29,897 nucleotides of DNA from a virus: IMG/VR virus record IMGVR_UViG_3300042907_000045, positions 1-29,897 of that record. The stretch is one strand, 5' to 3'. Shown here piece by piece: positions 15,884 to 29,897 of this stretch (position 1 is its first letter; each line of letters opens with the position of its first letter). A program made the position numbers and the translations under genes. The notes under the pieces were generated by a model. That model saw nothing but the letters and a program-made list of their open reading frames with translations. It had not been told where the DNA came from and did no database searches.

Positions 15884-16299
15884 AGTTCAAGTTTGTATTG
15901 GTTTAAGTTAGCAGAATATACGTAACATTGTTCCGGGCTTTTAAAAGAAAATTTAGCATAATTTAAGACATATTCCTTACCGTGTAAATATTCAATATAA
16001 GCGTAGTTTTCTATTATTTGAATGAAAACATAAACTTCTGCTTTTAAATGCTCGCTAAGAGCTTCTAAACAACAATTAAATGTATAAGTTTTATGCTTCG
16101 TACATTTAACTTGGTAGGTGTAACCTTTTTCGTCTGCAAAATCAATTTTTTCAAAGTCCCTGTCTGCTTTTTGTTTAAACAATTGTTCTCCCTGATAGTT
16201 TAATGTAAACCATAATTCGAATATTTTTTCTCCAATGTCACCTGTAGAATTGTTTGCAATTTCATTAGGTATTTTTATTTTCGCTAAATAAGTTCTCAT
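15880..16299 (-). CDS. PD-(D/E)XK nuclease-like protein (139 aa)
   Basis: A small protein with the core of a restriction-endonuclease-like fold: helix with E24 (GDIGEKIFELWF), D53 in KIDFADEKG, and Q63-V-K65 (YTYQVKCT), an allowed variant of the E-X-K motif. It could be a Holliday-junction resolvase-like or DNA repair nuclease. A phage-encoded restriction enzyme is another option, given that the nearby genes may mark phage DNA. It overlaps the MazG-like gene by 4 nt and the replication gene by 4 nt. Confidence 0.65.
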   Translation of the reverse strand: MRTYLAKIKIPNEIANNSTGDIGEKIFELWFTLNYQGEQLFKQKADRDFEKIDFADEKGYTYQVKCTKHKTYTFNCCLEALSEHLKAEVYVFIQIIENYAYIEYLHGKEYVLNYAKFSFKSPEQCYVYSANLNQYKLEL

Positions 16300-16601
16300 G
16301 AGTTTTCTTTAATAAAAGTTCCATTAATCATTTCGCCTTTTCTTTTTGCTATAACCTCATAAGCTGAATTTATGCAATCTTCAATACTTGTTCCGTTAAA
16401 ATAAGCTATCGAAGTTAAAACAACAACACAATCTCCAATGGCGTCAATTATTTCTTCATTGTCATTATTTATAATAGCTTTGGCAAGTTCCCCTGCCTCT
16501 TCTTGGAGTTTTACGTATTGCGTTTTAATATCCCCTTTGGATAAAATTCCTTTTTCTTTTGCCCATTCTCGAATAGGCGTAAATTCATTTGTTAGTTTCA
16601 T
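16296..16601 (-). CDS. MazG-like nucleoside triphosphate pyrophosphohydrolase
   Basis: A 101-residue all-alpha NTP-PPase. The metal-binding EExxE motif is E34, E35 and E38 (LQEEAGELAKA) and the second acidic helix is D53-x3-D57 (DAIGDCVVVL). Such enzymes hydrolyse (d)NTPs to monophosphates, and here it may remove an unwanted nucleotide, much as dCTPases do in phages with substituted cytosine. It sits directly downstream of the thymidylate-synthase-like and amidotransferase genes, which makes that role attractive but not proven. Its start overlaps the small gene upstream by 17 nt. Confidence 0.82.
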   Translation of the reverse strand: MKLTNEFTPIREWAKEKGILSKGDIKTQYVKLQEEAGELAKAIINNDNEEIIDAIGDCVVVLTSIAYFNGTSIEDCINSAYEVIAKRKGEMINGTFIKENS

Positions 16602-16755
16602 TTTTTTTTTTATTAATCATTAGTAATTCTCTTTCTTTTAATTTTTCTAGCAGTTCAATTGCTTTAGCCCTGTCATTTCCCGATATTTCAAAAGATGTAA
16701 GACAATGGGGGTTTTTTGCAATAAGTTGGCTTATTTTTTTTTCTGACATTGCCAT
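16585..16755 (-). CDS. Small basic protein overlapping the amidotransferase gene (56 aa)
   Basis: This frame runs from ATG 16755 (MAMSEKKISQLIAKNPHCLT) to TGA 16585. It overlaps the end of the amidotransferase gene by 25 nt and the start of the MazG-like gene by 17 nt. The sequence KISQLIAKN...ISGNDRAKAIELLEKLKERE could be a small winged-helix-like or helical domain with a Lys-rich tail. An internal start at 16749 is also possible. The packing supports it, but the A-rich DNA here makes chance frames likelier. Confidence 0.5.
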   Translation of the reverse strand: MAMSEKKISQLIAKNPHCLTSFEISGNDRAKAIELLEKLKERELLMINKKKNETNK

Positions 16756-18035
16756 ATTTCTTTATGTTTAGTATTAATTAAATTTATATTAAAAGGTTTA
16801 TCGTTTAAATACCTAAGAGGTTTTTTTTCCCCTTTTAAGATATATTCTGGCAATATGTTTTTATAAGTATCCTTTAGGATTTTTTTATTAATCCTATCTG
16901 TCCTTTGCAAGGAATTTGAATATCGAAGTAAGTCCATACTCATTAATGGAGATCTAGCTTCTTTTGTAAATGCCATACTCATTCGATCAAGTCTTATATT
17001 ATGATAAAATGGTAATTCTTGAAAAACATCATATTCCCAAGTGTCGTTTTCTTTTGCTCTGTTATATCCGCCAAATAATTCATCAGCGCCATCTCCTGTT
17101 AAAACAATTGAATTTTTAGCATTTTTAAAAAGTAAATACTGGGGCATTAAACTTCCATAATCTAAAGAGTATTCATAAAAATAAATAGCATTATTTAATT
17201 CCGTTGGAGTAAACTTGTCAGATATAAAATTACAAGCTAGTCCATACTCTTTACATATTTTTTCTACTCCCTGTGCTTCTTCGTTTTCAATTGAAATTAA
17301 ATCTATTTCCTTAGCGTGTTTTAAAACATGATGCAAAACAATATTCGAGTCCAAACCGGAGCTTAATAATAAAGAAACTCCATCTATTTTATTTTGCAAT
17401 CTTCTTTTAACGGATAGGTCAATTAAAGAATATAAATCTAATTTGCTTTCCATTTTTAAATAATTAAGCGACATTAAAAGAAAAGGTCTAGTATTATTTT
17501 TTTCATAAAGATAAAACTTTCCAGGTAAATAACGATGGACTGTAGTAAAATTAGTATTTAAAGTCCCAAAGTGTTTTTCAGAATAGCTGTTATATTCATA
17601 GGTTTGTAATATCCCTTTTATTTCAGATGAAATACCTATATTATTATAATACAATTGTTTTTTTCCTAATGGATCTGTAAAAGAAAACACATCGCCATTT
17701 TTACAAATAATAGAAATAGACCAAAAACCGTCCCATTTAACTGACTCTTTATATAAGGACAAAGGATCCGTTTTTAATTTAATAAATTGAGTTTTTAAAT
17801 AATGCAAATCAGATTGACTAGATGGCATTAATTCTTGATGATTAAAAATCTCGCCATTAAAAACTAAAAGCTTACCGTTGCATTCTATTGGTTGAATTAA
17901 ACCGGTTTTATTACTAGACAAAGGCAAAGAGTCAAAAGATGTTATCCAATCATTAAATTCTAAAGTAAGATTAGACAAACCTCTGTGCTTAATTTTATTT
18001 TCAATAGGTTTTTTTGTTATTGTAAAGCCGCACAT
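16731..18035 (-). CDS. Asparagine-synthetase-like glutamine amidotransferase
   Basis: A two-domain AsnB-family enzyme, 434 residues against about 500-630 usually. The N-terminal Ntn glutaminase has Cys2 (MCGF), HRG (17-19), FNGEIFNHQEL (N60, E62) and DPLGKKQLYY (121-130). The C-terminal ATP-PPase has the loop SSGLDS (225-230, canonical SGGxDS), TGDGADELFGGY (313-324), RLDRMSMA (348-355) and KGEKKPLRYL near 401. All key sites look intact, so it should pass ammonia from glutamine to an AMP-activated carboxylate. The acceptor may be aspartate, or a modified nucleotide or DNA base given the neighbouring TS-like gene, which it overlaps by 19 nt. It is shortened mainly at the C-terminus. CpG use is intermediate, hinting at separate acquisition. 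Confidence 0.85.
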   Translation of the reverse strand: MCGFTITKKPIENKIKHRGLSNLTLEFNDWITSFDSLPLSSNKTGLIQPIECNGKLLVFNGEIFNHQELMPSSQSDLHYLKTQFIKLKTDPLSLYKESVKWDGFWSISIICKNGDVFSFTDPLGKKQLYYNNIGISSEIKGILQTYEYNSYSEKHFGTLNTNFTTVHRYLPGKFYLYEKNNTRPFLLMSLNYLKMESKLDLYSLIDLSVKRRLQNKIDGVSLLLSSGLDSNIVLHHVLKHAKEIDLISIENEEAQGVEKICKEYGLACNFISDKFTPTELNNAIYFYEYSLDYGSLMPQYLLFKNAKNSIVLTGDGADELFGGYNRAKENDTWEYDVFQELPFYHNIRLDRMSMAFTKEARSPLMSMDLLRYSNSLQRTDRINKKILKDTYKNILPEYILKGEKKPLRYLNDKPFNINLINTKHKEIWQCQKKK

Positions 18036-18763
18036 TTTTCTAGTATTTTTTTAAGTGAATAAATATCTGATATAAAGCAGTGGAAACTACCAATCCAGAC
18101 TGAAAGTTCTCCAAGTTCAATTTCTGTATTTTCTAAGCTTTGTAACATTTCCATTGCCAATCTTTGAGCCATATAAATGTCATTTCTAAAATGTCTACGC
18201 GCATCGCATGACCGAATTAAATATGTTACGTCTAGTTTATTATTGTTTACGTAAAACCAATAACCAATAGTGCATGGTAATCTAACGTTATTATTTGATT
18301 GATCTTCCGGGTGCCAAATAGATAAAAATGCTTGACGTGTTGTAAGATCATTTTTTAATCTATTTTTAATATCCAACCAATCTCCCATTTTAAACCTATT
18401 TCCTTCTTTTTTGTTTGGCCAAAAACGTTCTTGATATGTGTGACTAAATTTACTATCAGATCTAAAACGATCGTCATCAAGATCTTTTCTATAATAAGGC
18501 CAATTTTTATATTCATTTCCAGGATTGCTGTTACCTGAGATTCTTTCTATAAAATGATCTTCGCTCCAAGGTAAATCTGCTAAAGTTTGTTTTGACAAGT
18601 TATCTATATTTTTACACATTTCCATTTTCATAAATAAATTATTTACTTCCGTTATTTTGGTGTCTAAAGGTAAGGATTGCCATTTATGGGTTGTTTTTTT
18701 ATTTTTACTATTTAGTAAAACCCGAATTGCATTATTTATAGCATTATTTGTTTTCATAGACAA
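18017..18763 (-). CDS. Thymidylate synthase superfamily enzyme, dCMP (hydroxy)methylase-like
   Basis: A 248-residue ThyA-fold protein. WHPEDQ then RLPCTIGYWFYV carries the catalytic Cys164. Exactly 20 residues on is RSCD (R184, D187), as in E. coli ThyA (C146, R166, D169). R143 matches R126. At the position of ThyA Asn177, the pyrimidine-binding residue, this protein has Asp195 (FRNDIYM), the change found in T4 dCMP hydroxymethylase. His147, Gln165 and Gly173 are replaced, and HxY becomes H228-C-F230. It likely acts on a cytidine nucleotide, forming methyl- or hydroxymethyl-dCMP. The N-terminal part is unusual. It overlaps the DUF6378-like gene by 20 nt. M3 is an alternative start. Confidence 0.78.
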   Translation of the reverse strand: MSMKTNNAINNAIRVLLNSKNKKTTHKWQSLPLDTKITEVNNLFMKMEMCKNIDNLSKQTLADLPWSEDHFIERISGNSNPGNEYKNWPYYRKDLDDDRFRSDSKFSHTYQERFWPNKKEGNRFKMGDWLDIKNRLKNDLTTRQAFLSIWHPEDQSNNNVRLPCTIGYWFYVNNNKLDVTYLIRSCDARRHFRNDIYMAQRLAMEMLQSLENTEIELGELSVWIGSFHCFISDIYSLKKILEKCAALQ

Positions 18764-19043
18764 CGTCGTTTACTTCGTTTTTAACTCCTTCCATGTAATT
18801 ATTGTAGCCCCCAATATAAGCTACTAAGTCCAATAAATTATCCTCTTTATGAGACCAACTTTCTCTTGCTAATTTAAGAGCAATTTGAAAATAATAAATA
18901 TCAATACAGGTAACTTCTTTTCTTAAAAGTAGCGATGCAATTTGTGCTGCTTGTTCATTAGTCCAACTCATTGGACCATACTGTCTTTCTTTTTCTTCGG
19001 AGCGGATGTTTATTATTTCATTCGCTTTTTCTAAAATGTTCAT
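18744..19043 (-). CDS. DUF6378-like phage protein (99 aa)
   Basis: A 99-residue helical protein with RQYGPMSWTNEQAAQIASLL, then LKLARESWSHKEDNLLDLVAYIG. The combination of an R..YG start and a (K/R)..DN..D...Y. end is the pattern of DUF6378, a small family common in phages and thought to be MazG-like or nucleotide-linked from context. It is the first gene of the second early unit, 31 nt after a promoter box, and overlaps the TS-like gene by 20 nt. A nucleotide-metabolism role fits but is unproven. Confidence 0.7.
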   Translation of the reverse strand: MNILEKANEIINIRSEEKERQYGPMSWTNEQAAQIASLLLRKEVTCIDIYYFQIALKLARESWSHKEDNLLDLVAYIGGYNNYMEGVKNEVNDVVYENK

Positions 19044-19092: not shown

Positions 19093-19449
19093 TTAATAAA
19101 GTTCATTTATTAGCCTTTGTTGAATAATACGTAGGTCATTTAAATTTTTAGCTTCTCTAATTTCACTTAATAAATCTATATTTGGCTTATTGTTTTTTAA
19201 TAAAAGCTCATAGTACTCAGTGTCAATTTTTAATTGTTTGTCTTTGGTGTCAATTAAATTTTGGTAAGTTTTTAAACCGTGCAAAATTGAAGCGTGGTGC
19301 ATATTAAATAAGTCCCCTATTTTTTCTAAAGTATGGCCATTTTTTCTAAGCGCTTGAAATAAATAAATTCTTTTGTGTATTATTTCACGTTTTCGGTTTT
19401 TCTGTGCAAGTCCGTCTTGTTCTATTATTTCTTTTATTAGTTCTATCAT
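19093..19449 (-). CDS. DnaA domain IV-like DNA-binding protein (118 aa)
   Basis: A 118-residue protein whose segment HTLEKIGDLFNMHHASILHG (about 39-58), followed by LKTYQNL, closely follows the DnaA C-terminal helix-turn-helix (IGxxFxxxHxSI/TVxxAxxxI). The preceding REIIHKRIYLFQALRKN helix also matches. There is no AAA+ domain, so it is only a DNA-binding module plus a helical C-terminus. It may bind the phage origin, recruit host replication proteins or regulate early genes. It is the last gene of the first early unit and overlaps the previous one by 4 nt. Confidence 0.7.
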   Translation of the reverse strand: MIELIKEIIEQDGLAQKNRKREIIHKRIYLFQALRKNGHTLEKIGDLFNMHHASILHGLKTYQNLIDTKDKQLKIDTEYYELLLKNNKPNIDLLSEIREAKNLNDLRIIQQRLINELY

Positions 19450-29331: not shown

Positions 29332-29897
29332 TATTTCCAAAGTCACTTCTCCATTAGGACAAAAAGTATTATACACATGATAAGGCATCTCTAATCTTAC
29401 CCTGTTATCTCCATTGTCAAAGTATGTACCGTATTGAGTAAAATTACCTTGAAGATTAAGATTACAATTTTCAACAAAATTAGTAATGCTTCCTGCTGGA
29501 ATAGTTGTCTGAACATCCCACTGTACTCCATTACAAAAGAAAGTCATAGTATTTTGTGGAGGTATACTATCCCACTCTAATGCCTGACTATAGGCTGTAT
29601 ATATAGCAGGAATCTGACAGTTGGTCCATGATGGAATCACTACTGATAGATTCATCTGCCATCCTGCAGCATAGTCTAGTAGGTCATTATTCAATGGTAT
29701 GAATGTAGGCTGTCCATCTATATCAAAGTCATAGTCATCTGAGAATGTAAACTCTAGGTATAAATCCTGGAGTATCTGCTGAGTATCCGATAAGATAGTA
29801 GTGATGTTAGCTCTATCCATCTGTATAATATCAAAGCAATACAGCTCTAAATTAAAGATAGTGACATTCTCATAGGGAGTAACTCCTGTAGGTACTA
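29320..29897 (-). CDS. Tail completion/terminator-like protein, C-terminal part (238 aa, split by the contig ends)
   Basis: This is the continuation of the gene beginning at 266 across the circular junction. The frame enters open from base 29897 (the repeat copy) and stops at 29320-29322. An ATG at 29820 (MDRANITTILSDTQQILQDL) could be taken for a start, but it is codon 73 of the full frame. The middle part (NNDLLDYAAGWQMNLSVVIP, then CQIPA) completes a tail-terminator-like fold. The last 90 residues (about 150-238) contain beta-type sequence with several Cys and no recognised family, which may be an added domain. Confidence 0.75.
   Translation of the reverse strand, partial: VPTGVTPYENVTIFNLELYCFDIIQMDRANITTILSDTQQILQDLYLEFTFSDDYDFDIDGQPTFIPLNNDLLDYAAGWQMNLSVVIPSWTNCQIPAIYTAYSQALEWDSIPPQNTMTFFCNGVQWDVQTTIPAGSITNFVENCNLNLQGNFTQYGTYFDNGDNRVRLEMPYHVYNTFCPNGEVTLEIEQI
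29771..29897. repeat. Terminal repeat, right copy (assembly circularity)
   Basis: These bases are identical to positions 1-127. One copy should be removed when drawing the 29,770-bp circle. The exact length and the position inside a continuous gene argue against a true direct terminal repeat, though they do not show how the phage DNA ends are made. Confidence 0.95.

Follow-up and report, generated by a model that had tools for sequence, protein, structure and literature searches.

Results

The window analyzed here is the whole 29,897-nucleotide stretch of IMG/VR record IMGVR_UViG_3300042907_000045. Since it begins and ends with an exact 127-base direct repeat (positions 1 to 127 equal 29771 to 29897), the sequence very probably represents an entire circular genome of ~29,770 bases (~29.8 kb). 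The relatives of its terminase are those of Flavobacterium phages, at 32% identity, and a Bacteroidota host is likely.

Four genes on the minus strand make up the locus. The first encodes a 99-residue DUF6378 protein (18744..19043; Pfam DUF6378, 1.5e-10), and its end overlaps by 20 bases the start of a gene for a 248-residue thymidylate synthase-fold enzyme (18017..18763), here termed TS. The start of the third gene (16731..18035) overlaps the end of TS by 19 bases. It encodes a 434-residue asparagine synthetase-like glutamine amidotransferase with Cys at position 2, here termed ASN (Pfam Asn_synthase, 3.3e-26; PDB AsnB, 9e-29). After ASN comes a 101-residue MazG-like nucleotide pyrophosphohydrolase (16296..16601; Pfam MazG, 1.4e-6; PHROGs MazG-like, 5.6e-33), which recurs in the gene maps of relatives. 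Just 5′ of the operon, positions 19093 to 19449 encode a small protein with a weak, sub-cutoff match to the DnaA C terminus (E = 6e-6), which is found in the same place in relatives. Promoter-like sites at the window were not clearly above those of shuffled sequence. We considered DUF6378 as a MazG relative or pyrophosphohydrolase and set this aside because hhalign did not support it (E of ~0.2); no solved structural relative of DUF6378 was found. A defense role was also rejected, since PADLOC annotated none of TS, ASN, DUF6378, or MazG.

The original prediction placed a divergent thymidylate synthase homologue at this site, strand unstated, with an Asp at the pyrimidine-choosing position and likely cytidine specificity. 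The TS reading frame starts with a TTG at 18763, and an alternative in-frame ATG lies two codons on at 18757. Matches to Pfam Thymidylat_synt (PF00303; E = 1.2e-9, above the family cutoff), to PHROGs phrog_160 (E = 2.2e-26), and to thymidylate synthase in a PDB search agree with the superfamily assignment, as do the catalytic C164 and an R184-S-C-D187 motif. We aligned the TS family with ThyA, T4 gp42, and SPO1 gp29 using hhalign (E = 1.9e-14), and a MAFFT alignment agreed on the residue pairs between TS and ThyA. A single gap-free block, offset by 18 residues from ThyA, pairs C164 with C146, R184 with R166, D187 with D169, and D195 with N177, exactly as had been proposed, and the corresponding T4 gp42 residue is D179. 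Counted from the TTG start, the codons of Cys164 and Asp195 lie at 18272..18274 and 18179..18181 on the minus strand. The replacement of ThyA H147, Q165, and G173 was also found, with T165, I183, and H191 in their places. The ~100 N-terminal residues, where an equivalent of Glu58 (T4 Glu60) is expected, align unreliably with the three reference enzymes; candidates there are E68 or E73, within a conserved W-S/A-E/D-x-H-F-x-E-R segment. An AlphaFold model of TS (pLDDT of 83.6, weak at about residues 70 to 120) was compared with the PDB by Foldseek. MilA CMP hydroxymethylase ranked first, the best matches also took in thymidylate synthases and the phage dCMP hydroxylase 9iqu, and T4 gp42 (1b49) came at rank 43. 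In the alignments, Asp rather than Asn stands at the pyrimidine position.

TS scored far below the NCBIfam ThyA cutoffs (33 versus 174.55 bits and 28 versus 108 bits) and is therefore no ordinary ThyA. The description as a divergent branch also holds. The dTMP-forming ThyA equivalog is further distinguished from TS by Asn177, replaced by Asp195, and by its C-terminal tail, the columns of which are empty in the window TS and most relatives.

Among 89 distinct (nonredundant) TS relatives, 88 have Asp at the ThyA-177 position. The sole Asn belongs to a degenerate copy that has also lost the catalytic Cys, the first of the tandem TS genes in the L096:6298-6996 region. The Cys146 equivalent is present in 88/89 relatives and R166 and D169 in all 89; the equivalents of Tyr94, Arg126, and His207 are nearly invariant. 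Thr or Ser occupies position 147 in 88/89, and T4 gp42 has Thr. As a control, the SPO1 dUMP hydroxymethylase has Asn at 177. The TS homologues of modified-cytosine contigs were best separated at positions 147 and 177 in the MetaGPA work (PMC8670742), and a citation in that paper has an Asn-to-Asp change turning ThyA into a dCMP methylase.

T4 gp42, a dCMP hydroxymethylase, shares with TS the Cys nucleophile (Cys148), the Asp (Asp179), the Thr at 147, a phosphate-site Arg, and the absence of the tail, and the FRND segment that carries the Asp is identical between the two. R193 of this segment matches T4 Arg177, so that a basic residue is kept where T4 reportedly holds the glutamate tail of folate in an enzyme without the ThyA C-terminal tail (PMC6400193). 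TS differs from gp42 in being very divergent, in having Gln at the ThyA R127 position (Arg in T4), and in its His at G173. The fold is closest to that of MilA, the CMP 5-hydroxymethylase of mildiomycin, which also has Asp (Asp186) at the cytosine position. However, Ala replaces Ser167 in MilA and BcmA, which act on CMP and prefer ribose (PMC5175136), whereas the window TS and 84/89 relatives retain Ser at this deoxyribose position, so a deoxyribonucleotide is expected. Unlike MilA, TS also has no extra C-terminal helical domain. Taken together, the family-wide Asp177, Thr/Ser147, the FRND segment, the absent tail, and the Foldseek matches to MilA and the phage dCMP hydroxylase support the cytosine specificity originally predicted, and the predicted substrate of TS is very likely dCMP.

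The ASN partner had been missed in the original prediction. Its model (pLDDT of 94.4) matched AsnB/ASNS structures. Like AsnB, ASN has two domains, a glutaminase Cys nucleophile, the NGE motif (N74, G75, E76), D98, and a PP-loop (SxGLDS), so glutamine-derived ammonia and ATP activation are expected. Unlike AsnB, the ASN family has LDYGS or IDLGS for the TTIRAS block, His for D384 in nearly all members, and Asp for E348. We take these three AsnB elements to be aspartate-site residues. The score was below the NCBIfam asparagine synthase cutoff (134 versus 267 bits). Given these replacements and this score, we rejected an ordinary asparagine synthetase, and we infer from the changed pocket that ASN acts on a substrate other than aspartate. 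The window ASN had no tblastn match in annotated isolate phages, and with two other family members the same comparison matched only proteins of 22 to 28% identity. Distant phage ASN homologues were found among glycosyltransferase genes. Another distant asparagine synthetase-like gene lies between QueC and tRNA-guanine-transglycosylase in what is annotated as the 7-deazaguanine cluster of Achromobacter phage Motura (L198:7001-8281). At L040:6001-7341, ASN has Cys2 changed to Ser and GDGADE changed to GYGSSS while the adjoining TS keeps its Cys and Asp, a natural ASN knockout.

Diverse IMG/VR phages share the order DUF6378-TS-ASN-MazG, and DUF6378 lies immediately 5′ of TS in 29/89 TS relatives. 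Used as separate IMG/VR queries, TS and ASN retrieved each other's loci, with TS in 38, ASN in 34, DUF6378 in 26, and MazG in 21, and these genes mostly kept one order; the tallies count overlapping copies of a contig more than once. Broader scans gave 485 confirmed TS relatives and 171 ASN relatives, of which 80 each were kept. Among the distinct contigs, many of which are fragments, 51 carry both genes, 45 TS alone, and 27 ASN alone. On a quickly built TS tree with long branches, the presence of an ASN neighbor required five to six changes, whereas shuffling gave a mean of 22. ASN is paired with several separate TS branches, having been either gained repeatedly or lost from an ancestral arrangement. 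The contigs with ASN alone resemble fragments of large phage genomes. Two of 26 ASN-only records, of 319 kb and 250 kb, exceed 163 kb, and both encode an Asp177 TS elsewhere (E of ~1e-82); for comparison, 141 of 50,697 phage records gave any match to the window TS. No TS was found in the other 24, all of 163 kb or less and possibly fragments. Mycobacterium phage Muddy, Gordonia phage Fribs8, P744, Brevundimonas phage Strzyga, and MW202455 have TS without ASN anywhere in the record. The TS-only phages and the TS genes of the large ASN-only genomes, of which there are only two, would fit ASN acting after TS.

Relatives of the locus carry further genes. Homologues of C5-cytosine methyltransferases are encoded between TS and ASN or next to TS (the latter in L013, L063, L071, L073, L078, L052, L098, and L017). 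Those that we read have Lys, in GKSIVP- or TGKCMP-type motifs, at the near-universal HhaI Asn304 position. CmoX has Arg350 at this site, and an engineered N374K variant of M.MpeI accepts carboxy-SAM. The donor of the Lys-bearing homologues may be carboxy-SAM or some other charged molecule. Also recurrent are N4/N6-type methyltransferase homologues, dCMP deaminase, dUTPase, and a P-loop protein; the last adjoins ASN in large phages and has weak kinase matches. None of these, nor a C5-type homologue, was seen in the window. Muddy-like phages have a gene for a ~280-residue, phrog_13667-like protein immediately 5′ of TS (L002:5090-5983, L021:5128-5982, L099:3858-4742, and relatives). Its conserved C119, R138, and D149 have nearly TS-like spacing, and hhalign set them in register with the Cys, Arg, and Asp of TS (E = 0.011; probability, 3.9%). 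This protein is possibly a second TS-fold subunit that has diverged strongly. Actinobacterial chromosomal TS homologues of 325 to 352 residues (L191, L192, and L193) adjoin a conserved ~660-residue gene, and these loci are perhaps nucleoside natural-product clusters.

Discussion

On balance, we favor a pathway in which the product of a dCMP-type TS is aminated or amidated by ASN to give a hypermodified cytosine in phage DNA. The TS-fold enzyme would bind dCMP, not dUMP; Cys164 would attack C6, Asp195 would recognize and protonate the cytosine, and the one-carbon unit of folate would be placed on C5. With no tail to seal the active site as in ThyA, the group left there is probably hydroxymethyl rather than methyl or hydroxyl. 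With ammonia taken from glutamine and with ATP, ASN would then aminate or amidate the substituent at C5, either while it is on the nucleotide or once it is within DNA. MazG, perhaps together with DUF6378, would keep dCTP low, and host kinases and polymerase would carry out the remaining steps, giving phage DNA with a restriction-resistant hypermodified cytosine. No DNA polymerase was recognized in the window, so in this complete small genome the pathway would consist of TS, ASN, the pyrophosphohydrolase, and host enzymes.

That ASN acts on the product of TS is, in our judgment, an evenly balanced proposition. Several observations speak against the favored pathway: the N-terminal third of TS, with the expected Glu58 equivalent, is unaligned and in part weakly modeled; complete phages such as Muddy have TS alone; L040 pairs a disabled ASN with an intact TS; and 24 ASN-only records, possibly fragments, show no TS. 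Plain 5-hydroxymethylcytosine has no carboxylate, which counts against the ASN step. One option is that the hydroxymethyl is activated and then displaced by ammonia. To our knowledge, this would be new for the ASN fold. The other is that ASN amidates a carboxylate left by the TS step or by a host step. More tentatively, TS and an ASN with a remade pocket could together make an undescribed C5-amino- or amido-type cytosine, such as 5-aminomethyl-dC or the amide of a C5 carboxylate group, by a pathway widespread in phages and with the Lys-type C5-methyltransferase homologues as further modules in relatives.

The strongest competing explanation, though a rather unlikely one, is that TS is a dCMP hydroxymethylase, the final base is plain 5-hydroxymethylcytosine, and ASN is an unrelated amidotransferase, for free asparagine or another amide, that shares the operon. 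T4 offers a precedent for such a base, the complete phages with this TS but without ASN would be accounted for, and a pathway without an obvious carboxylate for ASN would pose no difficulty; the distant ASN homologues among glycosyltransferase genes are also consistent with it. Against this stand the overlap of TS and ASN and their recurrence in diverse contigs and several TS branches, the replaced aspartate pocket with its low asparagine synthase score, and the TS encoded in both large ASN-only records. An overlapping partner of this kind raises the likelihood of a product beyond plain 5-hydroxymethylcytosine.

Another C5 product from dCMP is unlikely, whether 5-methyl-dCMP or a flavin-made 5-hydroxy-dCMP as with the phage HY126 dCMP hydroxylase AfhB. 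The structures of AfhB with FAD (PDB 9iqu and 9iqc) are close Foldseek matches to TS, and AfhB has the TS fold and, by its entry title, a dCMP substrate. However, AfhB is called flavin dependent. We know of no link between AfhB and an ASN, and a literature search on HY126 and AfhB found nothing relevant. The Asn-to-Asp ThyA, cited as a dCMP methylase, would also speak for this explanation, but TS has no C-terminal tail, which in ThyA seals the site for hydride transfer, and its R193 matches the folate-tail residue of T4.

Activity on dUMP, as a thymidylate synthase or a dUMP hydroxymethylase, is highly unlikely. It would suit the superfamily, the annotation in public records, and the dCMP deaminase and dUTPase genes often near TS, but the pyrimidine-choosing position is near-invariantly Asp where the SPO1 dUMP enzyme has Asn, and position 147 is Thr or Ser. 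Moreover, T4, which uses a dCMP enzyme, has dCMP deaminase and dUTPase neighbors as well. It is most improbable that TS is catalytically dead and serves, for example, to bind nucleotides or a partner: the N-terminal region with Glu58 is unrecognizable and the L096 tandem copy has lost its Cys and Asp, but the active-site equivalents are almost invariant across the 89 relatives.

Returning to the favored pathway of TS followed by ASN, the enzyme class is well supported. Its nearest known systems are T4 hydroxymethylcytosine, the hydroxymethylcytosine carbamoyltransferase pathway, and CmoX/CmoY. In T4, the partners of the hydroxymethylase are glucosyltransferases, whereas TS is partnered by an asparagine synthetase-like enzyme. 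The carbamoyltransferase pathway (MetaGPA, PMC8670742) likewise combines an Asp177 TS homologue with a second enzyme, near PRA-PH/MazG-type and dCMP deaminase genes, but its second enzyme is a carbamoyltransferase instead of an asparagine synthetase relative. In the CmoX/CmoY/CmoA system, as here, an asparagine synthetase homologue adjoins a cytosine C5-modifying enzyme. This homologue, CmoY, couples glycine to the 5-carboxymethylcytosine of phage DNA, and a glutaminase domain is present in an uncharacterized sister CmoY cluster (PMC12783734). The carbon in that system comes from carboxy-SAM via a DNA C5-transferase, unlike the TS homologue of the window. Neither CmoX nor CmoA was recognized among the scanned window proteins, none of which matched E. 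coli CmoA, so a CmoX/CmoY system in the window was rejected. No convincing CmoA was found in the relatives' loci either, where phmmer with E. coli CmoA gave weak matches in three actinobacterial contigs only. The cytosine-type TS signature is of a known kind, and the pairing of TS with ASN lacks an exact precedent: we found no description of such a pathway or operon in the literature searched, which took in a minority of subscription journals.

Public phage records annotate this branch as thymidylate synthase, and a large group of cytosine-type enzymes, with 485 TS relatives confirmed in a single IMG/VR scan, appears to be hidden under that label. Its recurrent ASN partner predicts a cytosine hypermodification chemistry that, in the same literature, is without exact precedent. 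Base modifications of phages determine the restriction and CRISPR systems that are able to act, and they are a source of enzymes for epigenetic sequencing.
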